Notes under the pieces: generated by a model
The model's input: only the letters and a program-made list of their open reading frames with translations
What the model was told of the DNA's origin: nothing
Database searches by the model: none
In this document: piece after piece, positions 7,988-61,129 of the stretch
Layout of the letters: every line of letters starts with the position of its first letter
Position numbering within the stretch: position 1 is the first letter of the stretch
Made by a program: the position numbers and the translations under genes
Source: Topomyia yanbarensis
Taxonomy: Eukaryota; Arthropoda; Insecta; Diptera; Culicidae
Assembly (NCBI RefSeq): GCF_030247195.1
Contig: NC_080672.1
Span: 183,083,234-183,147,233, forward strand
Length of the DNA stretch: 64,000 nt
Direction: 5' to 3'

Positions 7988-9456
7988 GGCTTCTTCTTAT
8001 TTAACTCGCCGAAGGGACACGAAGGTCCGCCCATAGCATGTTTATGGGCTTGCTTCTTAGAGGTGCAGATAAGGCACTTATATGCCTTAGTGCACCCCCG
8101 CTCTTTATGCCCCTCCTCGCCGCATCGACGACATAGCTTGCTCCTGTCTATGCCTTTGCATTCGTAAGCTTTATGGCCGGATTCTAGGCACCGATAGCAC
8201 CTGTCCACTGAAGGCGGCTGGGGTATACTAATAGGGCATACCGACCAGCCGATCTTCAGCTTCCCTTTCTCGGTTACCTTTTTGGCATCCGCATTCAGTA
8301 GCCTGAGGTAGGCTACTTGGGTGCCAGAGGGTCCGTCCCTCAATCGCACAGAGGCCCGCTCGATTGTGACGCCGCATTGCTCCTTGACGGCTGCGACGAC
8401 GTCTTCCGCGGTCGTGAACTCGTCCAAGTGCTTGCACTGGAGAGTTGTTTCCGCACCTAGCGACCTGATTTGGGCGCCCTCACCAAGGACCTCTTGGGCC
8501 AAGGCCTTATATACTGCACTTGATTGTGCGCCTCGCTTCAGCACCAGGAGCATCTCTCCCGTATTGGTGCGTCTTACGCTACGCACATCCTGCCCAAGGG
8601 CCGAGAGACTTTCGGCCGCCTTCATCGATTTAAGGACATCGGCGTATTTGTCCTTGTCGGTTTTTAACCACAAGGCTTCGCCTCTGTCCTTGGCCTTCCT
8701 CGCAGGCCGCGGTACCTCCGGTTTCGGTGCCGGCTTTTTCTTGGTAACCAGCGTCCAGGGGTTTGAGCCCCCCTGCCCCGGTCGTGCCGGGTTGCTGGTA
8801 CCATCGCTCTCCACAGCGAGGTCACTCTCGCCCTCGCTTACCTCACCCAGGCGGCGTTTGACCTTGACGGTTGCACGCCGAGTGGTGTCGGTTTTGGCAC
8901 CCTCTCCTGGCGACTTCCTAGGGCGTTTCGCATTCGATGCCGTCTTGCGATTGCCCTTTCCTTTTCCCTTCGAGGGGAACTCGGTCGCCGCTCCGATCGA
9001 CGTGGCTGCTCCGTAGAAGGTAAAGGCCACTGTCTGTGAACCTCTATTGACCTTCTCTCTTTCCTCCCTATTGGAGGCCACTGTCTGGGTTTCTCTGTCG
9101 GGCCTCTCCCGACATTCCACCCTCTCAACATATGCCTGCTGTTCCTGTCTTGCGACACGAACAGCTTTCCGGAGCTCCAGAAGGCTCAACTTCAACTCCT
9201 TGGCTATGTTCTGCTTTGCGCTAGCGAAGTCGATTATAGCATCGAGTTGCTTCGCTACTTTGCGCATCGCAGCTATTGGCCCCTCCGATGCATTGGTAGG
9301 GGTATTGCCTACCGCTGCTGGGGGGTCACTGGTGCTTTCGAGTGCAGCACTCATCGTTCCACCACTCTCCCCACGGGGGGGAGACCTCGCCAAACCACCT
9401 CTTGCGAAGGGGTTTGGCACCTCCGTCTGTTTATTTTTATTTTTATTTGCCTCCAT
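7984..9456 (-). CDS. R1-clade ORF1 (Gag-like RNA-binding protein), copy 1
   Basis: This is an open frame of 490 codons, taking the first ATG at 9456. A longer frame would need a GTG start four codons upstream. The N-terminal half is charged and K/R/E/S/T-rich with a basic stretch. The C-terminal end has three zinc knuckles in series: CYRCLESGHKAYEC, CRRCGEEGHKERGC and CLICTSKKQAHKHAMGGPSC. This is the standard arrangement of ORF1p in R1, I and Jockey-type elements, where it coats the element RNA. The stop codon overlaps the start of ORF2 in GTGA. It is a transposon protein, not a host gene. The frame is intact although ORF2 of this copy is dead. Confidence 0.85.
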   Translation of the reverse strand: MEANKNKNKQTEVPNPFARGGLARSPPRGESGGTMSAALESTSDPPAAVGNTPTNASEGPIAAMRKVAKQLDAIIDFASAKQNIAKELKLSLLELRKAVRVARQEQQAYVERVECRERPDRETQTVASNREEREKVNRGSQTVAFTFYGAATSIGAATEFPSKGKGKGNRKTASNAKRPRKSPGEGAKTDTTRRATVKVKRRLGEVSEGESDLAVESDGTSNPARPGQGGSNPWTLVTKKKPAPKPEVPRPARKAKDRGEALWLKTDKDKYADVLKSMKAAESLSALGQDVRSVRRTNTGEMLLVLKRGAQSSAVYKALAQEVLGEGAQIRSLGAETTLQCKHLDEFTTAEDVVAAVKEQCGVTIERASVRLRDGPSGTQVAYLRLLNADAKKVTEKGKLKIGWSVCPISIPQPPSVDRCYRCLESGHKAYECKGIDRSKLCRRCGEEGHKERGCTKAYKCLICTSKKQAHKHAMGGPSCPFGELNKKKP

Positions 9457-9968
9457 GTGTAGTCCCACGAGTAGCGCGAGAAATATATGTCCGCCACGCC
9501 AGAGCTCCGCATTAGCGTGGTAAGGGACGCTTACTGTGGGGGTTGCCCAGGTACCCCACAGGCTCCGTTAACGATCGAGCATCTTTTTCACCCCCTCGAT
9601 CACTCATCCCTCGGCACGGGTCGCTTCACGCCTTGGAATTGGGGTTATGCCCTACCTTGCTTTACGTGGTGATCTCGGCCCGGATCATCACAACCATCCT
9701 CCTTTACCAGGGCTTTGGACCTGTAGCTCTGGATCTCAATAGTTCCAAGTACGTATGTTATTACAGACATACTACTATTGGGATCCGTCATTCGCTAGCG
9801 GAGTAGTCTGATGTCTGTGTGTGTGTGTGTGAGTGTGTGTGTGTCTGTGTCTGTGTGTGTGTATGTAACGGACAAATTCTCATTCGTGTTTCTCAGCAAT
9901 GGCTGAACCGATCTTATCCAAACCAATTTTAAATGAAAGAACTAAAAAACAGTATGAACGCTATTAAT

Positions 9969-9979
9969 TTGTTTTTGAT
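9969..9979. other. Uninterrupted site matching the ribozyme-array insertion in segment B
   Basis: ttgtttttgat occurs once here, within ...cgctattaatttgtttttgattctgatg. In segment B its reverse complement atcaaaaacaa flanks the 344-bp array on both sides. Segment A thus shows the pre-insertion state. Confidence 0.85.
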
Positions 9980-10762
9980 TCTGATGTTTAGTTTCCAAGA
10001 TATGAATGTTTAAATGTGTAAAAATGGCGTTTTTTGCAGTTTTTTTGGATTATCTGCCGAAATTGACAACATAGATTAACAATTTATATGTTTTTAGACA
10101 GCTTTAACGAATACCTTTCGAACAAGCTATAGATTGTTGAAATCGGACTATTATCATAAGAGATATTTAACATTAAATGCGGACGAAAGATTTTTATCAT
10201 TTCCCATTGTCAGAAATATGACCAAAAACATGTAATCTATTATTAACGCCAAAACGGCTTATTTTAGGTCAATAGTATCTTCGGAGAATTTAATGAAGGT
10301 AATATGCCCTTTCTTTTGGTATAGTGCTTTTGCTGATTGATCCCCCTATGAGTGAGATATTTTCACAAATTTTCTTGGAAGTGATTATATCGAAATAATA
10401 TCTTCAGCAAATTTGTAGCTCTTACTTTTGCGAATAACTTTACTAAAGACTTTAAATATCTATTTTGAATACTTTAAAAGTTATGGCTTGTTATTTGTTG
10501 ATTACTCTTTGTCGCCTATTTATTGTTCAATATAGTAATAATCCATTGAAATAAGCTAAACATTATTTCGATAAAACGAATTTTGTATTTCATTTTACTA
10601 TCTACAACCGCTAGAAATAATCACCGAATACTTCCAAGTTGTCTGGACGGAACTTATTAACTTATCAGTACAAAAATGTTCATTTGTGCGAACCTTCTGA
10701 CTGCAATTCGATCTGAAACATATCGGAAAATGAAAAGCGAAATAAATAATTCCGAGCAACGG

Positions 10763-14936: not shown

Positions 14937-16071
14937 GAGTCCTTTTGAATGCAAAAGACTTAGAAGATTTTCAGAAAGCTGGAAGACGCGGGTCTGGAAG
15001 ATTCCTTATAGCCCGCACCTCAACAATATGGATATTTTCGGAATGGTCTTGAAGTAGGTACCAGAAATTGATTTTAACGCCATTTTTAAATCTAAGATAG
15101 CGACTTCCGGTTTAGCGAAATTCGCTATAACCCAATCAGTATGGGATGTACAAATAGCTTTAATTAAGCAGTTGAATTTACTTGCATTTTAGTAATGTGT
15201 TTAATTTGAATCAATTAAAACCCCCAACTCACATTACATACATCTCTTTCTTCTCTCATTTCCATTCTCACCGCACTCTTCAAGATGCACACACAAAAAT
15301 ATTTTACATTTCGCTGGTTTATGATTAGATCTTATATTCGAGGATGTTTTGGATGATCGCCCAGATTTTCCATTCAGGAATTTCGGTTAACCGGAAGTCG
15401 CCATCTAGAATTTCAAAATGACGTCAAACATCGACATTTGTCTCCTGCTCGTCGAAAACCATTCCGAAAATATTCATATTGGTTAAGTTGTGGAGAATCT
15501 CGCTAAGCCGGAAATCACCATCTTGGATTTCAAAATGGCTTCCAAAATCAATTTTTCATGGACAACCTTGGGCTGAAGATGCTGATTTATTTATTTCTTT
15601 ATTTATTCCTGGCACCTGCTCGTTAACACCATTCCGAAAATACCTATATTGATTGGGTTACAGCGAATTTCGCTAAACCGGAAGTTGCCATCTTGGATTT
15701 CAAAATAGCGTCAAATATCAATTTCTGGCACCTACTCTTCAAGACCATTCCGAAAATACACATATTTATTGGGTTATAACGAATTTCGCCAAACCGGAAG
15801 TCGCCATTTTGGATTTCAAAATGCCGTCAAACACACATTTCTGGCACCTACTCATCAAGACTATTCTGACAATACCCATATTGCATGGGTTGTAGAGAAT
15901 TTCGCTAAACCGGAAGTCACCATCTTGGATTTCAAAATGACACCAAAAATCAATTTCTGGCACCTACTCGTCAAGACCATTCAGAAAATACCCATATTGT
16001 TGAGGTGCGGGACATAAGGAGTCCAGACCCGTCTCTTCCATCTTTCCGAAAATCTTCTAAGTCTGTTGCAT
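14937..16071. repeat. Foldback element built of 116-bp tandem units
   Basis: The outer ends are inverted: gagtccttttgaatgcaaaa...ggtctgg...cccgcacctcaacaatatgg (14937-15033) faces catattgttgaggtgcggg...cagaccc...tgcattcaaaaggact (15994-16071). The right arm holds units starting at 15634, 15750, 15866 and 15982, exactly 116 bp apart. Each reads ccgaaaatacc-atatt-gggtt--agcgaatttcgctaaaccggaagt-gccatcttggatttcaaaat, followed by ggcacctactcgtcaagacc. A more decayed unit lies near 15465. No coding potential is seen. Confidence 0.75.
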
Positions 16072-32896: not shown

Positions 32897-33695
32897 CGTT
32901 GCTTGGAGTTATTTATTTTGCTTTTCATTTTCCGATATGTTTCAGATCAATCCGATGGTCATAAGTTAGAAAAATTGCAGTCAGAAGGTTCGCACAAATG
33001 AACATTTTTGTACTGATAAGTTATCAAGTTCCTTCCAGACAATTTGGAAGTGTTCGAAATCTAGCGGTTGTAGATAGTAAATTGAAATACAAAATTCGTT
33101 TTATCGAAATAATGTTTAACTTGTTTCAATGGATTATTATTATATTGAACAATAAATAGGCGACAAAGAGTAATCAACAAACAACAAGCCATAACTTTTA
33201 AAGTATTCAAAATTGATATTTAAAGTCTTTAGTAAAGTTATTCACAAAAGTAAGAGCTACAAATTTGCTGAAGACATCATTTCGATATAATCACTTCCAA
33301 GAAAATTTGTGAAAATATCTCACTCATAGGGGGATTAATCAGCAAAAGCACAATACCAAAAGAAAGGGCATATTGCCTCCATTAAATTCTCCGAAGATAC
33401 TATTGACCTAAAATAAGTCGTTTTGGCGTTAATAATAGATTACATGTTTTTGGTCATATTTCTGGCAATGGGAAATGATAAAAATCTTTCGGCCGCATTT
33501 AATGTTAAATATCTCTTTTGATAATAGTCCGATTTCAACAATCTATAGCTTGTTCGAAAGGTATTCGTTGAAGCTGTCTAAAAACATATAAATTGTTAAT
33601 CTATGTTGTCAATTTCGGCAGATAATTTAAAAAAACTGCAAAAAACGCCATTTTTACACATTCAAACATTCATATCTTGGAAACTGAACATCAGA

Positions 33696-33706
33696 ATCAA
33701 AAACAA
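33696..33706. other. Target-site duplication, left copy (ATCAAAAACAA)
   Basis: Eleven bases adjoining the ribozyme array. They are identical to 36537-36547 and present once in segment A. Confidence 0.85.
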
Positions 33707-33830
33707 TATGCTATATTTCACCCTAAGGAGGAAAATTTGGTAAAAACCAAAATTTCTCACTAGGGTGAAAATTTGTTGGTAAAAACCAGTCTTTGTACAG
33801 GAGGGCACAAATCCTTATTTCATACTATGT

Positions 33831-33905
33831 TGCGTTTCGGCTTCGCCTCATCAGAAACCGACACTAACACATTGTCGGAATAGATTAGCGCCGGCTTGAC
33901 GCAAA
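33831..33905 (-). ncRNA. Hammerhead ribozyme motif (left arm, unit 1)
   Basis: The motif is identical in sequence to the right-arm motifs but encoded on the minus strand. Its predicted cleavage site follows the C at 33899. Confidence 0.8.
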
Positions 33906-34173
33906 TCCCTTAAAACTAAAACACACTATGTGTTTCAATCAAACGACTGGTCAAACGTGATGTCCCGTTCGAGCAGAAGTTCTGTTTATGCCGATGAGAC
34001 ACAAGTGAAGCCGAAACTTGTCTTGGCTTAGCAGGCCTATGCGAAAGCACTATGCTATATTTCACCCTAAGGAGGAAAATTTGGTAAAAACCAAAATTTC
34101 TCACTAGGGTGAAAATTTGTTGGTAAAAACCAGTCTTTGTACAGGAGGGCACAAATCCTTATTTCATACTATG

Positions 34174-34248
34174 TTGCGTTTCGGCTTCGCCTCATCAGAA
34201 ACCGACACTAACACATTGTCGGAATAGATTAGCGCCGGCTTGACGCAA
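34174..34248 (-). ncRNA. Hammerhead ribozyme motif (left arm, unit 2)
   Basis: Minus-strand copy with all core and stem bases unchanged. It lies 343 bp from the previous one. Confidence 0.8.
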
Positions 34249-34517
34249 ATCCCTTAAAACTAAAACACACTATGTGTTTCAATCAAACGACTGGTCAAAC
34301 GTGATGTCCCGTTCGAGCAGAAGTTCTGTTTATGCCGATGAGACACAAGTGAAGCCGAAACTTGTCTTGGCTTAGCAGGCCTATGCGAAAGCACTATGCT
34401 ATATTTCACCCTAAGGAGGAAAATTTGGTAAAAACCAAAATTTCTCACTAGGGTGAAAATTTGTTGGTAAAAACCAGTCTTTGTACAGGAGGGCACAAAT
34501 CCTTATTTCATACTATG

Positions 34518-34592
34518 TTGCGTTTCGGCTTCGCCTCATCAGAAACCGACACTAACACATTGTCGGAATAGATTAGCGCCGGCTTGACGCAA
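34518..34592 (-). ncRNA. Hammerhead ribozyme motif (left arm, unit 3)
   Basis: Minus-strand copy nearest the inversion centre, all core and stem bases unchanged. The flanking unit carries one private substitution (caataaaacg for caatcaaacg). Confidence 0.8.
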
Positions 34593-34735
34593 ATCCCTTA
34601 AAACTAAAACACACTATGTGTTTCAATAAAACGACTGGTCAAACGTGATGTCCCGTTGTCCCCCTGCTCGAACGGGACATCACGTTTGACCAGTCGTTTG
34701 ATTGAAACACATAGTGTGTTTTAGTTTTAAGGGAT

Positions 34736-34810
34736 TTGCGTCAAGCCGGCGCTAATCTATTCCGACAATGTGTTAGTGTCGGTTTCTGATGAGGCGAAGC
34801 CGAAACGCAA
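34736..34810 (+). ncRNA. Hammerhead ribozyme motif (right arm, unit 1)
   Basis: Self-cleaving RNA motif. Stem III pairs TTGCGT (34736-34741) with ACGCAA (34805-34810), and C17 follows at 34742 in the triplet GTC. Stem I pairs AAGCC with GGTTT. The core box CTGATGA comes next, then stem II GGC-GAA-GCC, then GAAA leading into stem III. All the nearly invariant hammerhead core bases are present. Because both ends of the motif lie in stem III, it is a type III arrangement. Cleavage is predicted between C34742 and A34743, and in a tandem transcript it would release 344-nt monomers. The loop of stem I can itself pair CCGACA with TGTCGG. Confidence 0.85.
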
Positions 34811-35079
34811 CATAGTATGAAATAAGGATTTGTGCCCTCCTGTACAAAGACTGGTTTTTACCAACAAATTTTCACCCTAGTGAGAAATTTTGGTTTTTAC
34901 CAAATTTTCCTCCTTAGGGTGAAATATAGCATAGTGCTTTCGCATAGGCCTGCTAAGCCAAGACAAGTTTCGGCTTCACTTGTGTCTCATCGGCATAAAC
35001 AGAACTTCTGCTCGAACGGGACATCACGTTTGACCAGTCGTTTGATTGAAACACATAGTGTGTTTTAGTTTTAAGGGAT

Positions 35080-35154
35080 TTGCGTCAAGCCGGCGCTAAT
35101 CTATTCCGACAATGTGTTAGTGTCGGTTTCTGATGAGGCGAAGCCGAAACGCAA
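35080..35154 (+). ncRNA. Hammerhead ribozyme motif (right arm, unit 2)
   Basis: Exact repeat of the unit 1 motif. The predicted cleavage site follows C35086. Confidence 0.85.
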
Positions 35155-35423
35155 CATAGTATGAAATAAGGATTTGTGCCCTCCTGTACAAAGACTGGTT
35201 TTTACCAACAAATTTTCACCCTAGTGAGAAATTTTGGTTTTTACCAAATTTTCCTCCTTAGGGTGAAATATAGCATAGTGCTTTCGCATAGGCCTGCTAA
35301 GCCAAGACAAGTTTCGGCTTCACTTGTGTCTCATCGGCATAAACAGAACTTCTGCTCGAACGGGACATCACGTTTGACCAGTCGTTTGATTGAAACACAT
35401 AGTGTGTTTTAGTTTTAAGGGAT

Positions 35424-35498
35424 TTGCGTCAAGCCGGCGCTAATCTATTCCGACAATGTGTTAGTGTCGGTTTCTGATGAGGCGAAGCCGAAACGCAA
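35424..35498 (+). ncRNA. Hammerhead ribozyme motif (right arm, unit 3)
   Basis: Exact repeat. The predicted cleavage site follows C35430. Confidence 0.85.
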
Positions 35499-35767
35499 CA
35501 TAGTATGAAATAAGGATTTGTGCCCTCCTGTACAAAGACTGGTTTTTACCAACAAATTTTCACCCTAGTGAGAAATTTTGGTTTTTACCAAATTTTCCTC
35601 CTTAGGGTGAAATATAGCATAGTGCTTTCGCATAGGCCTGCTAAGCCAAGACAAGTTTCGGCTTCACTTGTGTCTCATCGGCATAAACAGAACTTCTGCT
35701 CGAACGGGACATCACGTTTGACCAGTCGTTTGATTGAAACACATAGTGTGTTTTAGTTTTAAGGGAT

Positions 35768-35842
35768 TTGCGTCAAGCCGGCGCTAATCTATTCCGACAA
35801 TGTGTTAGTGTCGGTTTCTGATGAGGCGAAGCCGAAACGCAA
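35768..35842 (+). ncRNA. Hammerhead ribozyme motif (right arm, unit 4)
   Basis: Exact repeat in the unit with two private substitutions outside the ribozyme. The predicted cleavage site follows C35774. Confidence 0.85.
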
Positions 35843-36111
35843 CATAGTATGAAATAAGGATTTGTGCCCTCCTGTAGAAAGACTGGTTTTTACCAACAAA
35901 TTTTCACCCTAGTGAGAAATTTTGGTTTTTACCAAATTTTCCTCCTTAGGGTGAAATATAGCATAGTGCTTTCGCATAGGCCTGCTAAGCCAAGACAAGT
36001 TTCGGCTTCACTTGTGTCTCATCGGCATAAACAGAACTTCTGCTCGAACGGGACATCACGTTTGACAAGTCGTTTGATTGAAACACATAGTGTGTTTTAG
36101 TTTTAAGGGAT

Positions 36112-36186
36112 TTGCGTCAAGCCGGCGCTAATCTATTCCGACAATGTGTTAGTGTCGGTTTCTGATGAGGCGAAGCCGAAACGCAA
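36112..36186 (+). ncRNA. Hammerhead ribozyme motif (right arm, unit 5)
   Basis: Exact repeat. The predicted cleavage site follows C36118. Confidence 0.85.
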
Positions 36187-36455
36187 CATAGTATGAAATA
36201 AGGATTTGTGCCCTCCTGTACAAAGACTGGTTTTTACCAACAAATTTTCACCCTAGTGAGAAATTTTGGTTTTTACCAAATTTTCCTCCTTAGGGTGAAA
36301 TATAGCATAGTGCTTTCGCATAGGCCTGCTAAGCCAAGACAAGTTTCGGCTTCACTTGTGTCTCATCGGCATAAACAGAACTTCTGCTCGAACGGGACAT
36401 CACGTTTGACCAGTCGTTTGATTGAAACACATAGTGTGTTTTAGTTTTAAGGGAT

Positions 36456-36530
36456 TTGCGTCAAGCCGGCGCTAATCTATTCCGACAATGTGTTAGTGTC
36501 GGTTTCTGATGAGGCGAAGCCGAAACGCAA
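36456..36530 (+). ncRNA. Hammerhead ribozyme motif (right arm, unit 6, terminal)
   Basis: Exact repeat. The array ends only six bases after stem III, at the right target duplication, so this last motif is complete although its unit is not. Confidence 0.85.
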
Positions 36531-36536
36531 CATAGT

Positions 36537-36547
36537 ATCAAAAACAA
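36537..36547. other. Target-site duplication, right copy (ATCAAAAACAA)
   Basis: Identical to 33696-33706. After it, segment B resumes with attaatagcgttcatactg, colinear with segment A. Confidence 0.85.
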
Positions 36548-36785
36548 ATTAATAGCGTTCATACTGTTTTTTAGTTCTTTCATTTAAAATTGGTTTGGAT
36601 AATATCGGTTTAGGCATTGCTGAGAAACACGAATGAGAATTTGTCCGTTACATACACACACACACAGACATTGTCCCAAATCGTCGAACTGAGTCGATTG
36701 GTGTATAAGACTCGGCCCTCCGGGCCTCGGAAAAAATCTTGAAAGTTTGAGCGAATTCTATACATTTCTTATATAAGAAATGTAA

Positions 36786-43382: not shown

Positions 43383-43915
43383 GGAGAGATGCCGAACGAC
43401 GACATTTGCCTCTGAAATTATGGATGATCGTGCTTATGATCACAATGCCTTCTAAAAGGTTCCATCTTTTCAACCGATTCATGATTTCCAAAAAAATCAA
43501 ACTATTTAAAAAAACGAAATTGTAATGCGGAGCTGAAAAATTTTCGGCACTCCGTGCTGCAATTGAATGCACTTTTGCCTCTGAAATTATGGATGATCGT
43601 GCTTATGATCAGAATGCCTTCTAAAAGGTCCCATCTATTCAACCGATACATGATTTTAAAAAAAAATCGAACGATGTAAAAAAACGAAATTTTATTGCGG
43701 CGCTGAAAAATTTTCGGCACTCCGTGCTGCAACTGAATGCACATAATCAATAATAAAGTTTTTGTGAGTAATTAAAAAGGATGATTTTACATCTTTAGTG
43801 TTATAATTCTTCGAAAGACAAACTCACAATATCATATTACCGTATAAAAGTCACCCCATATACGAGATATAGAGAGTGCGGCATCTCTCCTGACGCGGCA
43901 TCTCTCCCGAATTAA
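43383..43915. mobile_element. MITE-like element with GGGGAGAGATGCCG ends (second of two)
   Basis: It begins gtaggggagagatgccgaac, directly after the first element, and ends gcggcatctctcccgaatt. A direct 169-bp duplication fills most of it. The two elements lie end to end. Confidence 0.6.
43405..43742. repeat. Direct 169-bp tandem duplication
   Basis: Units 43405-43573 and 43574-43742 both read tttgcctctgaaattatgga ... ttctaaaaggt ... ttttcggcactccgtgctgc. They differ at roughly a dozen or more positions. Confidence 0.85.
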
Positions 43916-44736
43916 ATGCGAAAACAGCTGTGTAGTTGAAAGAACGGAACTTATTGAATCAACGATACATAAATTGGCTTGTCTCAGGTCAGCTAATTTC
44001 GAATTCTCGTTTTCACACGGTTTCAAAGATGGAGTGGGGTGAATTTGTACCCCATTTACTGTATTGATAGAATATGATCTCAAATTACGGTTTGTGTATA
44101 ATTTGTGAGCAATGTATCAATGAATAAGTAGAATTCACAATTTAACCTTAAGCTGTCCGTCTTGCCTTTCATTCCGCTATAGAGAGCACTAGTCTATTCA
44201 GTCAATTTACATTTCATAATTTGATAATGCAATATTTTTTCTTTGTCACATCATTCCAAGTTTTTTACAAATCAATTGTTGTTATTTTTACAATACCCGA
44301 CACTTCTTTACCGAAAATCGGATTTTTGACTTCAAAATGCTACCAAATTTTCAAAAAAACGAAAAAGGGAAAAGTTTCCGTTGTTAAATGGGAAATTATG
44401 TGGACAAATACTGTAGAAAATTTCAAAATTGTTGGTATAATAGATTTTGAGTTAGGATGGCGCGTCCGAAAAAGTCGTAAAATGTTCAGTATTAAATGAA
44501 TGAAATATGTAATATATAAACAAGAATTATGGCAAAAAATAATTTCCAATTATAACGTAGAGGATGCTGCGATTCAAAATTTAAACCCGTTTTTCTCGAA
44601 ATCAATATTTTGTTACTTGGTCCAGTCTGACTTAACACCGACCAATTGCAACTAGAACATTTATTTTAATTATTGGAATTATCCATAATTACATCTTTTA
44701 TCTAAATAAGTAGCATTCAAGCATCAGTATCCAAAG
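43916..44736. other. Unclassified DNA with a dispersed-repeat relic
   Basis: At 44570-44660 the sequence (tttctcgaaatcaatatttt ... gtctgacttaacaccgacc) is an inverted relative of 28345-28440. A 92-codon plus-strand frame (44221-44499) shows no recognisable domain. Confidence 0.4.
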
Positions 44737-45107
44737 CAGTGGCGTAGCCAGAAATTTGGTTTGGAGGGGGTTTTGATGAAAATCGCAAATTTTTTGTCAT
44801 CACCACTGTAAAGTAGGATAAATGATCTAAAAAATTTTCAACGTTCAAGATCACCTAATATAATAATCCTTGACTTTGAAGGTTTGACAACTTCGGGAAG
44901 TTATCAACATAAAACAGCGCCTGCTTTGATATAGAAATTTTAGTGATTAACTCTCATAGAGGTAATTATGGTGAGTTAATTTTTCAAAAATATTAAGAGA
45001 CATGGTGCCTTCAGCAAAGTTCTTGATAATGTCATTTCAAACAATTTTGTTGTAAATATGAAGGTTACATGAATTCAACATATAGGGATTTCAATGGACT
45101 GGGCCTG

Positions 45108-45400
45108 CTATATTTCTTTTTAGTGAAGAAAAATTTAGGTGAAAACTATTTTTTTCTGCGCTACGGATAAAATTGTTTGAAACAATCATTGCGAGTTGAT
45201 AACACAAAACCTATAACTAAATTATGGATGGATGGAACTGAAACTTGCGTTTCGACTTCATCTCATCAGAATCCGACACTAACTTGGTGGGCGGACTAAG
45301 CTAGCGCCGAATTGATGCTAGCTCCTGAAAATGGAATCACTCTTTGTGTTTTTGAGTCCTTTTAATATCTGGGAATTATTTGTTTTAAATCCAGTTCCCT
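45108..45400 (-). repeat. Diverged single monomer of the 344-bp ribozyme family
   Basis: In the same order as an array unit read on the same strand it has gcctgctatatttc, a gtgaagaaaaattta stretch, ttgcgtttcgacttcatctc, gaatccgacactaac, agcgccgaattga and cactctttgtgttttt. It is a single, old copy. Confidence 0.65.
45245..45320 (-). ncRNA. Diverged hammerhead ribozyme motif with compensatory stem changes
   Basis: On the minus strand the core boxes CTGATGA and GAAA are intact. Stem II is GAT-GAA-GTC instead of GGC-GAA-GCC and still pairs (one G-U). Stem I is AATTC/GGATT instead of AAGCC/GGTTT and still pairs. Stem III has decayed: TAGCATC faces ACGCAA, so the cleavage triplet is ATC and at least two pairs are lost. 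It is probably inactive or weak now, but the paired changes indicate past selection on the fold. Confidence 0.65.
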
Positions 45401-45746
45401 TATTTTTTTTTGTAAGCTTCAAAGGCACCTTGAACGCAATGTGAATTTATTATTTAATTATCGCAGAAGAGATTTATCAAATACAGTAATTTCAGAATAG
45501 CTTGTTGTAAAGGTTTTCTACTACTATATTTCGATACTCTGAATATGTGGGATATTTATGTCATTGACAAAGTTGTTTGAAATAGCACTTTCGAAAACTT
45601 TGCTGGAGACATTAAGTCTCGACCCAAATTTGGTTGAAGAGTAATTCTTGTGTATAATTACTTCTAGGAAGATTAACCGTCAAAATTATTCTATCAGCAG
45701 ATGAACAGTTTTACGTTTTGAAATTCTTTAATGTTACTTAACATCG

Positions 45747-45817
45747 AAATTTGGCAGTTTCGAATGAATGTGATCGTTTAACGGTCACGATCACATTCAT
45801 TCGAAACTGCCAAATTT
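45747..45817. repeat. Perfect 30-bp inverted repeat with an 11-nt loop
   Basis: The left arm 45747-45776 (aaatttggcagtttcgaatg...) is the exact reverse complement of 45788-45817. It lies inside the TIR element. It is a local inverted duplication, since the same sequence is not otherwise repeated in the window. Confidence 0.9.
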
Positions 45818-46531
45818 TAACGGTCAAATTTATCGAGCATTAATTTTACTTTTCTTCATTAGTCAACCTCGCAACTTGCAGTACTAGTACGTAGCACACA
45901 AAATTTTAGTACGCCATTCATTGCATCCTGCTAAGAGGCTATTCATATAGTTGATAATACAACAAAAATCCAATGCTCATAAAACCGATCCTGACCTGCT
46001 AGAGACAAAATTACATCAGCTTTCAACTAGTTTCTGAAATGTTATTCTTGTTGTTAACCATATTGAATTGTTGTCTAAACTCTACACAATCTAAAAAAAA
46101 TACATTTTCAGCAAATGTTGAAATGTATGTAAGTTTTCGGTAAACAAGCTTATGTTTTATATGCAATCAACCTATTCAAATTTAGATTCCCATTCGAAAA
46201 ATTGTCTCTAATCCATATTTTGAAGCATCTTTCCAAAAATAAGCTCATAATAATTCAAACAGTTATTTTATTTTACATTGAAGTAATTTGACAACTATGG
46301 GATTTTGGCTAAGAGATAAGTTACAAGATCCCACAATTGTCCAAAAGTTCTCATGACGCTTTAAACACAGTTCTCAATGTAGTGATCAGAGAATATTTTT
46401 CCAAAAATATTTTGTGGAATATTTAATTAAATTCGTCAGCATCAATTTTTTTTTCAATCCAATTAATTTTGGTTGGGGGGGGGGTTTAACCCCAAACCCC
46501 CCCCTCCCCTGGCTACGCCACTGATCCTAAG

Positions 46532-46882
46532 TAAAGTTGGCTGTAGTAACATATGTACATTCAAAACCGCAAATAAAATTCCATTTGAAAAGTATAGTAG
46601 TCGGTTCTCACGCTAAAGAGGCATGTTTGTGGACTTGACTGATTCGTAGTTATGCTGTCTAAGCTCGATCCCCATCGACATAAGACAAAAGTAAGCCCGT
46701 AAGATATTAAGCCTGCCACTTCTAGTTTTCCGATCTGTACCCAGTAATCTCTAGCTAATTAAATGTCGTTAAAATGTAAAAAATATACATATAGGAAGCT
46801 TGAAATTGCGCGCTATAAATAATAAATCAATTAAAAAACCAGGCGAAATAATGCACAAGAAGTGAATTGAGAGGTTACTTAC
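46532..46882. other. Unclassified DNA / intron
   Basis: This stretch is downstream of the exon at 46883-47032 on the minus strand, so it is intron if that exon is real. The part 46600-46720 (ccatcgacataagaca...aagcctgcc) weakly resembles the cttgtgtctcatcggcat part of the 344-bp unit. Confidence 0.4.
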
Positions 46883-52456: not shown

Positions 52457-55390
52457 CTAGTTAGCCGTGCCCGCCGTCTGTTGCTCGGTTCGCCAGATTA
52501 CCTGTAGCCTACTGGCAATCTGGATGGTAGCAGCCGAGACTGCGTTCCACTTCTCCACCGTTTGACACATCCGCTGAATAAGGGTATCCGGGGTTGTGTC
52601 CCAGCCACAGACGTCAAGCATTGCTCTTCTTTCGACGTCGAACCGATGACATACGAACAGTATGTGTTCGGCAGTTTCATCTACACCTGGGCAGTCCGGG
52701 CAGACTGGGACCTCCGCGTGCCCGAACCTGTGGAGGTACTGACGGAAACAGCCATGGCCTGACAGGAATTGTGTCAGGTGGAAGTGAACTTCCCCATGGG
52801 GTCTTCCCACCCAGCTCGATATGCTAGGTATCAGCCGGTGGGTCCACCTACCTTTCGAGGAGTTGTCCCACTCACGCTGCCATCTGGCGACCGAGGTCAC
52901 CCTGGTGCGCTCGCGGGCTCCCCTATTTCCACGTAGCTCAAAGCACTCCTCATCTTCCCGAATGACCAGTCCGACTGGCATCATGCTCGCTATCACGCAG
53001 GATGCATCGTGTGATACCGTGCGGTAGGCTGATATCACTCTGAAGCACATCACGCGGTAGGTGCTCTCCAGTTTCTGTAGGTAACTGGTTACCCTCAGTG
53101 CTCTTGACCATGACGGGCCGCCGTACCTGAGGATAGATACGGCAACGCCTGCCAGTAACCTACGTCTACTGGCGCACACCTTTGAGCTGTTGGACATCAT
53201 TCTCGATAGTGCCGCAACAGCAGTCGACGCTCTCTTGCACGTATAGTCGACATGGCTGCCGAAGGTCAGCTTGTCGTCTATAATGACTCGGAGAGACTTC
53301 AGACTTCGCTGTGAAGTGATCGCGACTTCTCCCACATGGATAACTGCATGTTGTGCCGACTTGCGGTTGTTGACGATAACTACCTCCGTCTTATGATGAG
53401 CGAGCTCCAGGCCTCTCGCGCTCATCCATTCAGGAATTGACTCCCCGTAGACCTCCAAGGTTACGTCGTCGGCAAAGCCGACGATCTTGACCCCAGGAGG
53501 GAACTTCAGTCTCAGAACCCCGTCATACATGAGGTTCCATAGCACCGGGCCTAGGATCGAGCCCTGCGGGACTCCGGCGGTAATCGGAACTCTTTTCTGA
53601 CCGGCATCGGTCTCGTATAGCAGTACGCGGTTTTGGAAGTAACTTTCCAGGATCCGGTACACACCCACCGGTAGGCTAAGCCGGTGTAACGAGAGCGCGA
53701 TGGCATCCCAGCTTGCGCTGTTGAATGCGTTCTTCACGTCAAGTGTCACTAACGCACAGTATCGAATACCTCGTCTTTTTCGTTGGATCGCTATCTCGGC
53801 AGTATTTATCACTGAGTTGAGAGCGTCCACTGTGGACTTACCCTTCCGAAAGCCAAACTGGTTGCTTGACAGACCGTCCGTACCTTCCGCGTACGGGGTG
53901 AGCCTGTTGAGGATGATCCTCTCAAGCAGTTTGCCAGTCGTGTCTATCAGACAGATTAGTCTGTACGCCGATGGGTCGCCTGGCGGCTTCCCGGGCTTCG
54001 GCAACAGCACCAGTTTCTGCCTTTTCCATCTATCGGGGAAACGGCACTCGTCAAGGCATCTCTGCATAGCTAGCCTGAACATGTTCGGGTTCGCTATGAT
54101 CGCTGCCTTGAGAGCGTTGTTCGGAACTCCATCCGGCCCTGGAGCTTTGTTCATTGCTAGGGATTTAGCCACTGCGAGTAGTTCTTCGTTCGTCACTGGA
54201 GCCACCATTTCGACCGTGCCCGCACTGTCTCGTAGTGCAGGTGGCCAGGGGCTTGTGGCTCGAGACGGGAAGAGTACTTCGATAATCGTTGCCAACCGGT
54301 CCGGAGACCGTTCTGGGGGTGAGGAGCCCCCTTTGGTCTTGGCCATCACAATCCGGTAGACGTCACCCCACGGATTCGCGTTGGCACTCTCGCACAGGTT
54401 GTCGAAACACGCTCTCTTGCTGCTTTTAATAGCCTTGTTAAGGGCTAATTTCACAGCTCGAAACACTTCACGGCGGTTCTCTCTTGCATCCTCGGTGCGA
54501 GCTCTTTGCATCCTACGTCTAGCTCTGAGACAGGCTGACCGTAGAGCTGCAATCTCGGCACTCCACCAGTATACCGGGCATCTACCGTTTCTTGGCAGTG
54601 TTTTTCTCGGCATAGTGGCGTCGCACGCGCGTGATAGAACAGCTACCAGCGCATCCCCGCTTAGACTGTCGGTGTTGGCCTCCAGTCCCAGGGCCGCGGT
54701 GAAAGCTTCGCTGTCGAAGTGATTGGACTTCCACCCGCGTACCTGACAGGGATCTCCCGCCCTCGGATGCTGCACACCATAGTTGATCTTAAAGCGGATT
54801 GCTAAATGATCGCTATGGGTGTAGCCTTCGTCTACCCTCCATTCCATGCCTGGAGCCAGACTCGGGCTGGCAAAGGTCAAATCAATCCACGCCTCCACTC
54901 CGTTTCTACGGAATGTACTAGCGGAGCCATCATTAGCTAGCACAGTATCGAGTTTCGCAAACGCTTCCATTAGCGCTTGACCCCTGCTATTTGTACAGCG
55001 GCTGCCCCACTCCACTGCCCAAGCGTTGAAGTCTCCCGCTATTACTACCGGTTTCCGGCCCACGAGGTCCGACGAGAGCCTGTCGATCATCTGGTAGAAC
55101 TGTTCTATTGGCCACCTTGGTGGGGCGTAGCAGCTGCAATAGAACACACCATTGATCTTGGCAATCGCCACACCCTCGGCGGAGGGGTGTATTACCTCTT
55201 GAACCGGGAACCTTCCCGTTGTACAGATTGCCACCATTCCAGACCCGTCCGACACCCAATTGCCGTTGCCGGCAGGGATGCTGTACGGGTCTGATAAGAG
55301 GGCGACATCTGTCCTCGACTCCGAGACCGACTGCCACAGCAGCTGTTGGGCTGCTGCACAATGGTTAAGATTTAGCTGTGTGACTCTCAC
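52457..55390 (-). CDS. R1-clade ORF2 (endonuclease-reverse transcriptase), copy 2
   Basis: An open frame of 977 codons. Endonuclease: LNLNHC (~6), GDFNAWAVEWGS (~119), SDHLAI (~193). RT: APGPDGVP (~416), LPKPGKPPGDPSAYR (~463), GFRKGKSTVDAL (~513), TLDVKNAFNSASWD (~549), AGVPQGSILGP (~605), GFADDVTLEV (~638). The C-terminal zinc motif CPDCPGVDETAEHILFVCH lies near 905. There is no ATG at the start. The frame opens with GTG, which overlaps the ORF1 stop (GTGA); the first Met is about residue 52, inside the endonuclease. Compared with copy 3, 14 residues (SEVELTAEHAISTVE to P, near 652) are deleted in frame just after the FADD box. The usual YRPI motif reads YRLI. Activity is therefore doubtful although the frame is open. 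Confidence 0.9.
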   Translation of the reverse strand: MRVTQLNLNHCAAAQQLLWQSVSESRTDVALLSDPYSIPAGNGNWVSDGSGMVAICTTGRFPVQEVIHPSAEGVAIAKINGVFYCSCYAPPRWPIEQFYQMIDRLSSDLVGRKPVVIAGDFNAWAVEWGSRCTNSRGQALMEAFAKLDTVLANDGSASTFRRNGVEAWIDLTFASPSLAPGMEWRVDEGYTHSDHLAIRFKINYGVQHPRAGDPCQVRGWKSNHFDSEAFTAALGLEANTDSLSGDALVAVLSRACDATMPRKTLPRNGRCPVYWWSAEIAALRSACLRARRRMQRARTEDARENRREVFRAVKLALNKAIKSSKRACFDNLCESANANPWGDVYRIVMAKTKGGSSPPERSPDRLATIIEVLFPSRATSPWPPALRDSAGTVEMVAPVTNEELLAVAKSLAMNKAPGPDGVPNNALKAAIIANPNMFRLAMQRCLDECRFPDRWKRQKLVLLPKPGKPPGDPSAYRLICLIDTTGKLLERIILNRLTPYAEGTDGLSSNQFGFRKGKSTVDALNSVINTAEIAIQRKRRGIRYCALVTLDVKNAFNSASWDAIALSLHRLSLPVGVYRILESYFQNRVLLYETDAGQKRVPITAGVPQGSILGPVLWNLMYDGVLRLKFPPGVKIVGFADDVTLEVYGESIPEWMSARGLELAHHKTEVVIVNNRKSAQHAVIHVGEVAITSQRSLKSLRVIIDDKLTFGSHVDYTCKRASTAVAALSRMMSNSSKVCASRRRLLAGVAVSILRYGGPSWSRALRVTSYLQKLESTYRVMCFRVISAYRTVSHDASCVIASMMPVGLVIREDEECFELRGNRGARERTRVTSVARWQREWDNSSKGRWTHRLIPSISSWVGRPHGEVHFHLTQFLSGHGCFRQYLHRFGHAEVPVCPDCPGVDETAEHILFVCHRFDVERRAMLDVCGWDTTPDTLIQRMCQTVEKWNAVSAATIQIASRLQVIWRTEQQTAGTAN

Positions 55391-56859
55391 GGCTTCTTCT
55401 TATTTAACTCGCCGAAGGGACACGAAGGTCCCCCCATAGCATGTTTATGGGCTTGCTTCTTAACGGTGCAGATAAGGCACTTATATGCCTTAGTGCACCC
55501 CCGCTCTTTATGCCCCTCCTCGCCGCAGCGACGACATAGCTTGCTCCTATCTATGCCTTTGCATTCGTATGCTTTATGGCCGGATTCTAGGCACCGATAG
55601 CACCTGTCCACTGAAGGCGGCTGGGGTATACTAATAGGGCATACCGACCAGCCGATCTTCAGCTTCCCTTTCTCGGTTACCTTTTTGGCATCCGCATTCA
55701 GTAGCCTGAGGTAGGCTACTTGGGTGCCAGAGGGTCCGTCTCTCAATCGCACAGAGGCCCGCTCGATTGTGACGCCGCAGTGCTCCTTGACGGCTGCGAC
55801 GACGTCTTCTGCGGTCGTGAACTCGTCCAAGTGCTTGCACTGGAGAGTTGTTTCCGCACCTAGCGACCTGATTTGGGCGCCCTCACCAAGGACCTCTTGG
55901 GCCAAGGCCTTATATACTGCACTTGATTGTGCGCCTCGCTTCAGCACCAGGAGCATCTCTCCCGTGTTGGTGCGTCTTACGCTACGCACATCCTGCCCAA
56001 GGGCCGAGAGGCTTTCGGCCGCCTTCATCGATTTAAGGACATCGGCGTATTTGTCCTTGTCGGTTTTTAACCACAAGGCTTCGCCTCTGTCCTTGGCCTT
56101 CCTCACAGGCCGCGGTACCTCCGGTTTCGGTGCCGGCTTTTTCTTGGTGACCAGCGTCCAGGGGTTTGAGCCCCCCTGCCCCGGTCGTGCCGGGTTGCTG
56201 GTACCATCGCTCTCCACAGCGAGGTCACTCTCGCCCTCGCTTACCTCACCCAGGCGGCGTTTGACCTTGACGGTTGCACGCCGAGTGGTGTCGGTTTTGG
56301 CACCCTCACCTGGCGACTTCCTAGGGCGCTTCGCATTCGATGCCGTCTTGCGATTGCCCTTTCCTTTTCCCTTCGAGGGGAACTCAGTCGCCGCTCCGAT
56401 CGACGTGGCTGCTCCGTAGAAGGTAAAGGCCACTGTCTGTGAACCTCTATCGACCTTCTCTCTTTCCTCCCTATTGGAGGCCACTGTCTGGGTTTCTCTG
56501 TCGGGCCTCTCCCGACATTCCACCCTCTCAACATAGGCCTGCTGTCCCTGTCTTGCGACACGAACAGCTTTCCGGAGCTCCAGAAGGCTCAACTTCAACT
56601 CCTTGGCTATGTTCTGCTTTGCGCTAGCGAAGTCGATTATAGCATCGAGTTGCTTCGCTACTTTGCGCATCGCAGCTATTGGCCCCTCCGATGCATTGGT
56701 AGGGATATTGCCTACCGCTGCTGGGGGGTCACTGGTGCTTTCGGATGCAGCACTCATCGCTCCACTACTCTCCCCACGGGGGGGAGACCTCGCCAAACCA
56801 CCTCTTGCGAAGGGGTTTGGCACCTCCGTCTGTTTGTTTTTATTTTTGTTTATCTCCAT
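55387..56859 (-). CDS. R1-clade ORF1 (Gag-like), copy 2
   Basis: 490 codons from the ATG at 56859, the same length as copy 1 and over 95% identical by eye. It is basic and low-complexity in the middle (KGKGKGNRKTASNAKRPRKS), with LWLKTDKDKYADVLKSMK beginning a folded domain near residue 260 and three zinc knuckles at the C-terminus. Its product would package the element RNA. It is intact, so it could act in trans for other copies. Confidence 0.88.
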   Translation of the reverse strand: MEINKNKNKQTEVPNPFARGGLARSPPRGESSGAMSAASESTSDPPAAVGNIPTNASEGPIAAMRKVAKQLDAIIDFASAKQNIAKELKLSLLELRKAVRVARQGQQAYVERVECRERPDRETQTVASNREEREKVDRGSQTVAFTFYGAATSIGAATEFPSKGKGKGNRKTASNAKRPRKSPGEGAKTDTTRRATVKVKRRLGEVSEGESDLAVESDGTSNPARPGQGGSNPWTLVTKKKPAPKPEVPRPVRKAKDRGEALWLKTDKDKYADVLKSMKAAESLSALGQDVRSVRRTNTGEMLLVLKRGAQSSAVYKALAQEVLGEGAQIRSLGAETTLQCKHLDEFTTAEDVVAAVKEHCGVTIERASVRLRDGPSGTQVAYLRLLNADAKKVTEKGKLKIGWSVCPISIPQPPSVDRCYRCLESGHKAYECKGIDRSKLCRRCGEEGHKERGCTKAYKCLICTVKKQAHKHAMGGPSCPFGELNKKKP

Positions 56860-57207
56860 GTATAGTCCCACGAGTAGCGCGAGAAATATATGTCCGCCAC
56901 GCCAGAGCTCCGCATTAGCGTGGTAAGGGACGCTTACTGTGGGGGTTGCCCAGGTACCCCACAGGCTCCGTTAACGATCGAGCATCTTTTTCACCCCCTC
57001 GATCACTCATCCCTCGGCACGGGTCGCTTCACGCCTTGGAATTGGGGTTATGCCCTACCTTGCTTTACGTGGTGATCTCGGCCCGGATCATCACAACCAT
57101 CCTCCTTTACCAGGGCTTTGGACCTGTAGCTCTGGTTCTCAATAGTTCCATGTACGTATGTTATTACAGACATGCTACTATTGGGATCCGTCATTCGCTA
57201 GCGGAGT
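56860..57207 (-). promoter_or_regulatory. 5' UTR / putative internal promoter region of the R1-clade element
   Basis: The 348 bp upstream of ORF1 is also present, nearly identical, in copy 1 (9457-9804). Both end at the same base (ACTCCGCTAGC on the sense strand), so it is a true full-length 5' end. Non-LTR elements of this type carry their promoter in the 5' UTR; no specific box can be pointed out. Confidence 0.5.
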
Positions 57208-58152: not shown

Positions 58153-61129
58153 CTAGTTAGCCGTGCCCGCCGTCTGTTGCTCGGTTCGCCAGATTACCTG
58201 TAGCCTACTGGCAATCTGGATGGTAGCAGCCGAGACTGCGTTCCACTTCTCCACCGTTTGACACATCCGCTGAATAAGGGTATCCGGGGTTGTGTCCCAG
58301 CCACAGACGTCAAGCATTGCTCTTCTTTCGACGTCTAACCGATGACATACGAACAGTATGTGTTCGGCAGTTTCATCTACACCTGGGCAGTCCGGGCAGA
58401 CTGGGACCTCCGCGTGTCCGAACCTGTGGAGGTACTAACGGAAACAGCCATGGCCTGACAGAAATTGTGTCAGGTGGAAGTGAACTTCCCCATGGGGTCT
58501 TCCCACCCAGCTCGATATGCTAGGTATCAGCCGGTGGGTCCACCTACCTTTCGAGGAGTTGTCCCACTCACGCTGCCATCTGGCGACCGAGGTCACCCTG
58601 GTGCGCTCGCGGGCTCCCCTATTTCCACGTAGCTCAAAGCACTCCTCATCTTCCCGAATGACCAGTCCGACTGGCATCATGCTCGCTATCACGCAGGATG
58701 CATCGTGTGATACCGTGCGGTAGGGACGATATCACTCTGAGGCACATCACGCGGTAGGTGCTCTCCAGTTTCTGTAGGTAACTGGTTACCCTCAGTGCTC
58801 TTGACCATGACGGGCCGCCGTACCTGAGGATAGATACGGCAACGCCTGCCAGTAACCTACGTCTACTGGCGCACACCTTTGAGCTGTTGGACATCATTCT
58901 CGATAGTGCCGCAACAGCAGTCGACGCTCTCTTGCACGTATAGTCGACATGGCTGCCGAAGGTCAGCTTGTCGTCTATAATGACTCCGAGAGACTTCAGA
59001 CTTCGCTGTGAAGTGATCGCGACTTCTCCCACATGGATAACTGCATGTTGTGCCGACTTGCGGTTGTTGACGATAACTACCTCCGTCTTATGATGAGCGA
59101 GCTCCAGGCCTCTCGCGCTCATCCATTCCTCCACCGTGCTAATCGCGTGTTCTGCGGTTAGTTCTACCTCAGAAATTGACTCCCCGTAGACCTCCAAGGT
59201 TACGTCGTCGGCAAAGCCGACGATCTTGACCCCAGGAGGGAACTTCAGTCTCAGAACCCCGTCATACATGAGGTTCCATAGCACCGGGCCTAGGATCGAG
59301 CCCTGCGGGACTCCGGCGGTAATCGGAACCCTTTTCTGACCGGCATCGGTCTCGTATAGCAGTACGCGGTTTTGGAAGTAACTTTCCAGGATCCGGTACA
59401 GACCCACCGGTAGGCTAAGCCGGTGTAACGAGAGCGCGATGGCATCCCAGCTTGCGCTGTTGAATGCGTTCTTCACGTCAAGTGTCACTAACGCACAGTA
59501 TCGAATACCTCGCCTTTTTCGTTGGATCGCTATCTCGGCAGTATTTATCACTGAGTTGAGAGCGTCCACTGTGGACTTACCCTTCCGAAAGCCAAACTGG
59601 TTGCTTGACAGACCGTCCGTACCTTCCGCGTACGGGGTGAGCCTATTGAGGATGATCCTCTGAAGCAGTTTGCCAGTCGTGTCTATCAGACAGATTGGTC
59701 TGTACGCCGATGGGTCGCCTGGCGGCTTCCCGGGCTTCGGCAACAGCACCAGTTTCTGCCTTTTCCATCTATCGGGGAAACGGAACTCGTCAAGGCATCT
59801 CTGCATAGCTAGCCTGAACATGTTCGGGTTCGCTATGATCGCTGCCTTGAGAGCGTTGTTCGGAACTCCATCCGGCCCTGGAGCTTTGTTCATTGCTAGG
59901 GATTTAGCCACTGCGAGTAGTTCTTCGTTCGTCACTGGAGCCACCATTTCGACCGTGCCCGCACTGTCTCGTAGTTCAGGTGGCCAGGGGCTTGTGGCTC
60001 GAGACGGGAAGAGTACTTCGATAATCGTTGCCAACCGGTCCGGAGACCGTTCTGGGGGTGAGGAGCCCCCTTTGGTCTTGGCCATCACAATCCGGTAGAC
60101 GTCACCCCACGGATTCGCTTTGGCACTCTCGCACAGGTTGTCGAAACACGCTCTCTTGCTGCTTTTAATAGCCTTGTTAAGGGCTAATTTCACAGCTCGA
60201 AACACTTCACGGCGGTTCTCTCTTGCATCCTCGGTGCGAGCTCTTTGCATCCTACGTCTAGCTCTGAGACAGGCTGACCGTAGAGCTGCAATCTCGGCAC
60301 TCCACCAGTATACCGGGCATCTACCGTTTCTTGGCAGTGTTTTTCTCGGCATAGTGGCGTCGCACGCGCGTGATAGAACAGCTACCAGCGCATCCCCGCT
60401 TAGACTGTCGGTGTTGGCCTCCAGTCTCAGGGCCGCGGTGAAAGCTTCGCTGTCGAAGTGATTGGACTTCCACCCGCGTACCTGACAGGGATCTCCCGCC
60501 CTCGGATGCTGCACACCATAGTTGATCTTAAAGCGGATTGCTAAATGATCGCTATGGGTGTAGCCATCGTCTACCCTCCATTCCATGCCTGGAGCCAGAC
60601 TCGGGCTGGCAAAGGTCAAATCAATCCACGCCTCCACTCCGTTTCTACGGAATGTACTAGCGGAGCCATCATTAGCTAGCACAGTATCGAGTTTCGCAAA
60701 CGCTTCCATTAGCGCTTGACCCCTGCTATTTGTACAGCGGCTGCCCCACTCCACTGCCCAAGCGTTGAAGTCTCCCGCTATTACTACCGGTTTCCGGCCC
60801 ACGAGGTCCGACGAGAGCCTGTCGATCATCTGGTAGAACTGTTCTATTGGCCACCTTGGTGGGGCGTAGCAGCTGCAATAGAACACACCATTGATCTTGG
60901 CAATCGCCACACCCTCGGCGGAGGGGTGTATTACCTCTTGAACCGGGAACCTTCCCGTTGTACAGATTGCCACCATTCCAGACCCGTCCGACACCCAATT
61001 GCCGTTGCCGGCAGGGATGCTGTACGGGTCTGATAAGAGGGCGACATCTGTCCTCGACTCCGAGACCGACTGCCACAGCAGCTGTTGGGCTGCTGCACAA
61101 TGGTTAAGATTTAGCTGTGTGACTCTCAC
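58153..61129 (-). pseudogene. R1-clade ORF2, copy 3, frameshifted
   Basis: The first 827 codons are open (58646-61129) and include endonuclease and RT with all boxes; YRPICL, FADD and the 14 residues missing from copy 2 are present. One extra base near 58725 (ggtagggacgata versus ggtaggctgata) shifts the frame in the C-terminal domain. A TAG stop (HGCFR-stop, near 58435) follows in the restored frame. The C-terminal zinc motif remains further on. The first lesion lies after the RT core, so the catalytic part could still be translated. Confidence 0.9.

Follow-up and report, generated by a model that had tools for sequence, protein, structure and literature searches.

What is the 344-bp repeat with hammerhead ribozyme motifs at positions 33707-36536 of a 64,000-nt stretch of the mosquito Topomyia yanbarensis (contig NC_080672.1, positions 183,083,234 to 183,147,233, forward strand; hereafter the window), and how did it reach this place? 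We consider that it is probably a recent insertion of a non-autonomous type III retrozyme, most likely mobilised by a Penelope-like element. The retrozyme part of this explanation, taken alone, is very likely correct.

The unit of the repeat has 344 bp and 42% GC. No terminal long direct repeats were present beyond the units themselves, and no encoded protein was identifiable in the element; the search for relatives of an 80-aa reading frame in the unit found none. Tandem Repeats Finder detected two 344-bp arrays, at 33700-34657 and 34664-36542, with 99% match each. The initial annotation, which described one 344-bp tandem array, was right about the units and missed the inversion: minus-strand units with three motifs are followed by a 6-bp filler and by plus-strand units with six motifs, so that the arms face outward from the centre, head-to-head. 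The units differ at only three single positions (34628, 35877 and 36067), each in one unit. The inverted junction, 34635-34693, is a near-perfect hairpin with a weak score against microRNA families. A transcript spanning this junction would be a long double-stranded RNA and a possible source of small RNAs.

The 11-bp ATCAAAAACAA exactly abuts both ends of 33707-36536, and the chance of a repeat of at least 11 bp at random pairs of points in the window is 1.5e-5. When the flanks of the insertion are joined, they align without a break to 523 bases elsewhere in the window (10368-9846), an unoccupied paralogous site with 96.6% identity and a single copy of ATCAAAAACAA. The interval 33707-36536 is a real, recent retrotransposon-like insertion, and the boundaries in the initial annotation coincide with those set by the target duplications. 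Ordinary satellite DNA, expanded by unequal exchange and with merely decorative hammerheads, would suit the 99% likeness of the 344-bp units, and animal hammerheads have long been known from satellites (excerpts of PMC7229834). It is nevertheless a highly improbable source given the target duplication and empty site, the dispersed copies on several contigs and their fixed 3′ ends. For 33707-36536 it is largely refuted by the empty site, unless this site is the product of a deletion.

The genome of 1.17 Gb consists mostly of three large contigs (218, 470 and 429 Mb). A genome-wide search, as proposed in the initial annotation, revealed many further copies dispersed over several contigs. With the 344-bp unit as query 123 matches were obtained from 40 scored of 450 candidates, and with an older two-unit copy 86 matches from 40 scored of 3369 candidates. 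The 38 further loci examined (numbered with L below) are all the other clusters of the 344-bp unit search. Two subfamilies were found among the loci, a young one with stem II GGC/GCC and an older one with GAC/GTC, which is a paired change. Target duplications were searched for at 35 of 39 loci (L043, L049, L054 and L064 were left out), with a null rate of up to 0.12 (L058). They were detected at nine of the 35 loci, seven of them independent after discounting and 10-12 bp long: the duplication of L061 was discounted because the repeat lies within the unit itself, and L032 and L033, whose flanks are 99% identical, were counted once. L032 and L033 were both inserted into a paralog of the repeat that hosts the window insertion (33307-33706 and 36548-36660), beside a common ATTAAT. 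The target duplication, the empty site and the dispersed copies strongly support the mobility of the retrozyme-like family that the initial annotation had suggested.

The array motif is supported by its sequence as a type III hammerhead. The nine motifs are identical, and a complete ribozyme region was found in each, with a 6-bp stem III, the GTC triplet, stem I, CTGATGA, a 3-bp stem II with GAA loop, and GAAA. The core CTGANGA...GAAA plus a NUH triplet is also present in all nine. The topology is that of type III, with loops closing stems I and II and stem III open. Stem I consists of 14 uninterrupted pairs, four of them G-U, and the 5-bp stem I reported earlier is the lower part of this helix; the nine motifs, stems II and III, the GTC triplet and the type III layout were read correctly. 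The sequence CTGATGAGGCGAAGCCGAAACGCAA occurs nine times exactly in the window (expected 0 from 100 shuffles), and a tenth place with three mismatches lies at 45245-45269. A structure descriptor retrieved nine complete type III motifs in the window, six on the plus and three on the minus strand. In 60 first-order Markov windows, both strands included, it retrieved a single motif of each type (III and I), neither with stem I of at least 5 and stem III of at least 6 pairs. The minimum free energy (MFE) structure of the 76-nt region is the hammerhead (z -2.5). With two extra bases per side the MFE becomes another fold, while the stems of the hammerhead persist in the centroid; for a 131-nt stretch the fold is no longer the hammerhead.

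Genomic copies were used to examine the same structure. Of the 39 distinct motifs 36 were aligned, without three variants of L031 that are nearly identical. Standard pairs occupy 90.7% of the 827 pair cells in this alignment, versus 29-43% with the structure slid. The covariation score is above 500 out of 500 shuffles, with five pairs changed on both sides, and it may be raised by relatedness alone, as the tool warns. The alignment is support, not proof, given that related motifs, chosen beforehand for partial pairing, went into it. The divergent relative at 45243-45322 provides a moderate test of the stems: stems I and II keep all 17 pairs over 8 substitutions, for which the chance is 0.013% with random placement and random bases, and 2.2% with the same substitution types at same-base positions. 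The motif was not found in pattern scans of viral contigs, bacterial genomes and archaeal genomes.

The single copy at 45.2 kb was also considered as an insertion of the 344-bp family in its own right, which was rejected. It is read as a captured relic because a repeat of about 1.8 kb (44737-46523), with the 15-bp terminal inverted repeats CAGTGGCGTAGCCAG, surrounds it. The copy number of this repeat is very high (40 of 9842 candidates scored), and its termini are presumably hAT-like. A 2.8-kb query (43800-46600) recurs about 195 kb away, at G000:C3:182932208-182935017, with 99% identity, likely as a recent duplication.

The orientation and the ends of the copies follow patterns. Both searches together gave 70 clusters, in a sample of best-scoring rather than random copies: 52 of single orientation, 18 head-to-head and none tail-to-tail. 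Because L034 and L035 share a junction, the 18 head-to-head clusters are not all independent. Their arms are at most 54 bp apart in seventeen and 606 bp apart in one. The outer 3′ ends lie at site A (unit 70-90) or site B (unit 198-205) in 42 of 48 cases at 39 loci, and in 35 of 39 when probable copies of one insertion are merged by judgement; the end windows A, B and 5′ were chosen after viewing the ends. In older site-A copies the true end is about 10 bases past the end of the local alignment, which falls short because the array interior continues differently. Outer ends at both A and B were found in the window insertion, L031, L034, L035 and L060, two ends at A in L036 and L067, and only one fitting end in L055 and L066.

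The 5′ ends also cluster. Eight out of 21 collapsed single-orientation insertions begin at unit 8-19, just after the predicted cut at 7|8, for which the chance is 3e-7 under a uniform distribution and about 9e-6 allowing for 29 windows. These ends, piled near a cut predicted from sequence, speak for ribozyme cleavage. Four of these insertions (L037, L046, L056 and L058) have a length of about 1.2 units, which requires that an unbroken 7|8 joint was crossed once before copying stopped there. Such copies need a circle that opened later, or a partly cut multimer.

Template variants are shared within arrays. In L034 a common change at unit 55 is present in all five covering copies, on both arms, and in L036 three private changes are common to both arms. 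Private variants across both arms fit several rounds on a single circle. The arms of L035 differ at several positions, and one of its minus-arm copies has the L034 variants while the next is without the unit-55 change.

Folding models were applied to the unit as a circle. The circular fold has -114.9 kcal/mol (z -6.6 versus 100 shuffles) and pairs the core, unit 51-71, with unit 232-258; forcing the ribozyme in the circle costs 10.4 kcal/mol. The ribozyme core is predicted by this model to be blocked in the circle. For growing transcripts modelled from unit 273 or unit 8, the ribozyme is 3-5 kcal/mol above the optimum before the blocker of its own unit and 10-13 kcal/mol after it. The blocker did not co-change with stem II of the ribozyme; the pairing is retained, partly through G-U, perhaps without selection on it. 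An opposite-strand ribozyme in the blocker was considered and rejected: the segment resembles the core reversed, with no matching stems found by eye. It is read as a blocker only, because the stems were not found and the opposite-strand core has GATAA in place of GATGA in 19 out of 25 aligned loci.

Excerpts of the literature describe Penelope-like elements with a comparable behaviour. A lizard Penelope-like protein cuts and extends both strands, with cDNA started at two internal RNA sites that are not homologous to the target, and a preference for ATT is reported for a Penelope-like endonuclease (PMC11167929). Penelope copies occur head-to-head with 8-10-bp duplications (PMC3846280). As mobilisers of retrozymes, long interspersed nuclear elements (LINEs) or Penelope-like elements are named as candidates only, in excerpts from 2020 and 2024 (PMC7229834, PMC11722881). 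In the Topomyia genome five GIY-YIG loci were found, from 150 scored of 439 candidates. One open reading frame (ORF) of 465 aa joins RVT_1 and GIY-YIG, which is the Penelope-like layout; no complete copy was recovered. A type I hammerhead with a single additional base is present at two of the five loci and was absent from 150 Markov versions. A possible start signal shared with the 344-bp element is AACATAGT, about 34 nt upstream of the 3′ end of the Penelope-like sequence. The Penelope-like copy of L074 is also head-to-head. The 344-bp element resembles Penelope-like elements, as the same excerpts describe them, in fixed internal cDNA starts, extension of both strands, head-to-head copies, short duplications and AT-rich targets. 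It is unlike them in being a 344-bp element without an identifiable protein and in its non-homologous RNA sequence. By analogy, the one-way inversion and the fixed 3′ ends resemble the published Penelope-like behaviour.

Locus L074 also harbours two hammerhead relatives of the 45.2-kb type, in tandem and about 520 bp apart (L074:714-789 and L074:1234-1313, minus strand), which adjoin the Penelope-like copy and are perhaps a second unit type of the 344-bp family. A weak inverted pair of hammerhead-like motifs (21.3 and 17.7 bits) was found at L074:1723-1882, directly beside the Penelope-like 3′ end.

The same element could instead have been mobilised by an ordinary LINE (R1, Jockey, RTE or similar) through target-primed reverse transcription with twin priming, which is possible and, in our view, unlikely. 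A fixed 3′ end with variable 5′ ends in single-orientation copies, duplications of variable length and the occurrence of LINEs in the window all suit a LINE. With twin priming, the start of the second strand should vary in position, whereas in the inverted copies both ends lie at the same two sites. In addition, 18 of the 70 clusters are inverted, all one way, which is a better fit to Penelope behaviour as given in excerpts of PMC11167929 and PMC3846280.

Three R1-type (Waldo-like) retrotransposon copies are present in the window, at 6183-9468, 52457-56871 and 58646-61608, one of them with a second ORF of 977 aa. Among the best 120 relatives of the R1-type reverse transcriptase of the window are proteins of Anopheles, Aedes and Culex (40-58% identity) and of a Trichogramma wasp (39%), and the closest among the matches listed has 66%.

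Mobilisation by a Penelope-like element would proceed as follows; the cleavage, the circles, the timing and the Penelope enzyme as mobiliser are what we infer. Transcripts of the array would be cut by the ribozyme before the blocker of its own unit is made, about 155 nt later. The 344-nt monomers would be ligated to circles, in which the blocker segment may hold the core shut. A reverse transcriptase, most likely Penelope-like, would nick AT-rich DNA, and cDNA would be started on both nicked strands at the internal RNA sites A and B. Reverse transcription would make one or several rounds of the circle, and both cDNAs would be joined head to head. In its most specific form, this is an insect retrozyme with a switchable, viroid-style type III hammerhead, copied in trans by a Penelope-like element, in which cDNA on both strands starts at A or B, makes several rounds of the circular RNA and ends at the point where this is opened again by the ribozyme; we regard this form as evenly balanced between right and wrong.

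Several results weigh against this explanation, in addition to the late choice of the end windows. At no stage of the growing transcripts that were modelled is the ribozyme the optimum, and 10-14 of its 23 pairs are present in the MFE structure. In transcripts from site A, upstream of the previous blocker, it is disfavoured by 7-11 kcal/mol at every length modelled. At 26 of the 35 loci a target duplication was looked for and not found. No homology was detected between the 344-bp unit and the Penelope-like 3′ region. The covariance-model check that the initial annotation had proposed went against it: the Rfam search gave no match to the array motif at the gathering score. At relaxed thresholds RF00008 gave 18.7 bits versus 48.5, with the wrong register of stem III, and the other relaxed matches had a wrong register or were due to chance. 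Nor did Rfam detect a hammerhead at four loci that hold older or sister copies. Near the core, stem I lacks an internal loop, so that the usual loop contact may be missing.

The absent Rfam match and the loop contact that is not predicted would suit a hammerhead-like but inactive motif in an element resembling short interspersed nuclear elements, for which the ribozyme is not needed; so would the motif instances in genomic loci, of which 49 out of 89 satisfy the whole descriptor and 40 fail. We hold this to be improbable, as the stem pairs are retained via paired changes, 5′ ends lie at the predicted cut and multi-unit arrays derive from a single template.

Another difficulty for the Penelope-mobilised retrozyme is that L034 and L035 have an identical inverted junction and unrelated flanks. 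This junction and the differing arms of L035 are unexplained by single-event twin priming. A junction-bearing template may have been copied, or sequence may have been exchanged between both loci; neither is a full explanation. The common junction with unrelated flanks is what would be expected if inverted copies moved as DNA, like foldback elements, with ends CTATG...CATAG cut by a transposase and RNA uninvolved, and the CATAG-type ends do face outward in inverted copies. Such a movement is quite improbable, since single-orientation copies have one such end only, the length of the duplication varies from 10 to 12 bp and the 5′ ends cluster at the predicted ribozyme cut.

The element was also compared with known systems, as described in excerpts of the articles cited. 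Similar to metazoan non-LTR retrozymes, it consists of dispersed non-coding tandem repeats (about 150-450 bp in metazoans) of low GC, without long terminal repeats (LTRs) and with a hammerhead per unit (PMC7229834). Theirs are of type I, expressed as circular RNA and mostly free to fold in the circle, whereas the 344-bp element is of type III and predicted to be blocked (PMC7229834); because of the type III ribozyme, it is a variant and not a member of this group. In plant retrozymes and viroids the hammerhead is blocked in the circle, and in most animal retrozymes it is not (PMC7229834). With plant LTR retrozymes and hammerhead viroids the element shares type III and a complementary segment that blocks the core in the circle (PMC7229834, PMC11722881). 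Plant LTR retrozymes have LTRs, a primer-binding site and a polypurine tract; their ribozymes are about 700 bp apart and their duplications 4 bp long, compared with 344 bp and 10-12 bp here.

Type III hammerheads were already reported in termite and fly genomes (PMC7936874). These type III hammerheads, which are like hepatitis delta virus (HDV-like), resemble the array motif in their type, a long helix I and their occurrence in insect genomes, including Diptera. In them a 5-bp stem I is followed by an internal loop, which pairs with the loop closing a 6-bp helix II (PMC7936874); the array motif instead has 14 pairs without interruption in stem I, and its helix II has 3 bp. The termite hammerheads are isolated motifs, and for the fly ones no array or insertion structure was noticed in excerpts of PMC7936874; unpublished work on fly hammerheads cited there may cover relatives of the 344-bp family. 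Hammerheads of another mosquito, Aedes aegypti, are also located in interspersed repeats; for the one figured, the legend mentions a loop III as well as a dimer form, which we read as a closed stem III (PMC3088659). The animal precedents named in the initial annotation are not of type III: those of newt and Schistosoma are called type I (excerpts of PMC7229834, PMC6155905), and stem III of the cricket one is closed on itself (excerpts of PMC2837043). The termite and fly type III hammerheads are closer precedents (excerpts of PMC7936874). No description of the 344-bp family was found in the open-access literature, subscription papers and preprints being outside the search. What appears to be new is a type III, predicted-blocked retrozyme unlike the described animal ones; fly type III hammerheads as such are known.

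Table 1. Features of the 344-bp element and related sites in the window
Feature	Position	Strand	Remarks
Whole insertion	33707..36536		2830 bp, about 8.2 units of 344 bp, two inverted arms
Target duplication, left copy, 11 bp ATCAAAAACAA	33696..33706	+	single copy in empty paralog
Target duplication, right copy ATCAAAAACAA	36537..36547	+	
Minus arm	33707..34657	-	2.76 units; outer end unit 198 (site B), inner end unit 280
Filler at head-to-head junction	34658..34663		6 bp
Plus arm	34664..36536	+	5.44 units; inner end unit 273, outer end unit 81 (site A)
Hammerhead motif 1	33828..33906	-	79 nt including 2 flanking bases per side
Hammerhead motif 2	34172..34250	-	79 nt including flanks
Hammerhead motif 3	34516..34594	-	79 nt including flanks
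Hammerhead motif 4	34734..34812	+	79 nt including flanks
Hammerhead motif 5	35078..35156	+	79 nt including flanks; predicted cut after C35086
Hammerhead motif 6	35422..35500	+	79 nt including flanks
Hammerhead motif 7	35766..35844	+	79 nt including flanks
Hammerhead motif 8	36110..36188	+	79 nt including flanks
Hammerhead motif 9	36454..36532	+	79 nt including flanks
Predicted blocking segment, unit 232-258 (one unit shown)	35311..35337	+	pairs with ribozyme core, unit 51-71, in modelled circle
Unoccupied paralogous target site	9846..10368	-	contiguous through insertion point
Divergent hammerhead relative	45243..45322	-	stems I and II paired, stem III decayed; within high-copy repeat

A 116-bp tandem repeat is also present in the window, at 15605-15999, with 3.4 copies and 85% match.

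If the proposed explanation is true, a single mechanism accounts for tandem copies, inverted copies and copies of whole units plus 0.2. In their 5′ ends the copies seem to bear the imprint of the ribozyme in the genome. The positions of the ends, the inversions in one direction only and the duplicated targets allow the Penelope hypothesis of retrozyme movement to be tested directly. An insect retroelement whose type III hammerhead is blocked, as predicted, would also bring animal retrozymes closer to plant viroids or HDV-like circles.

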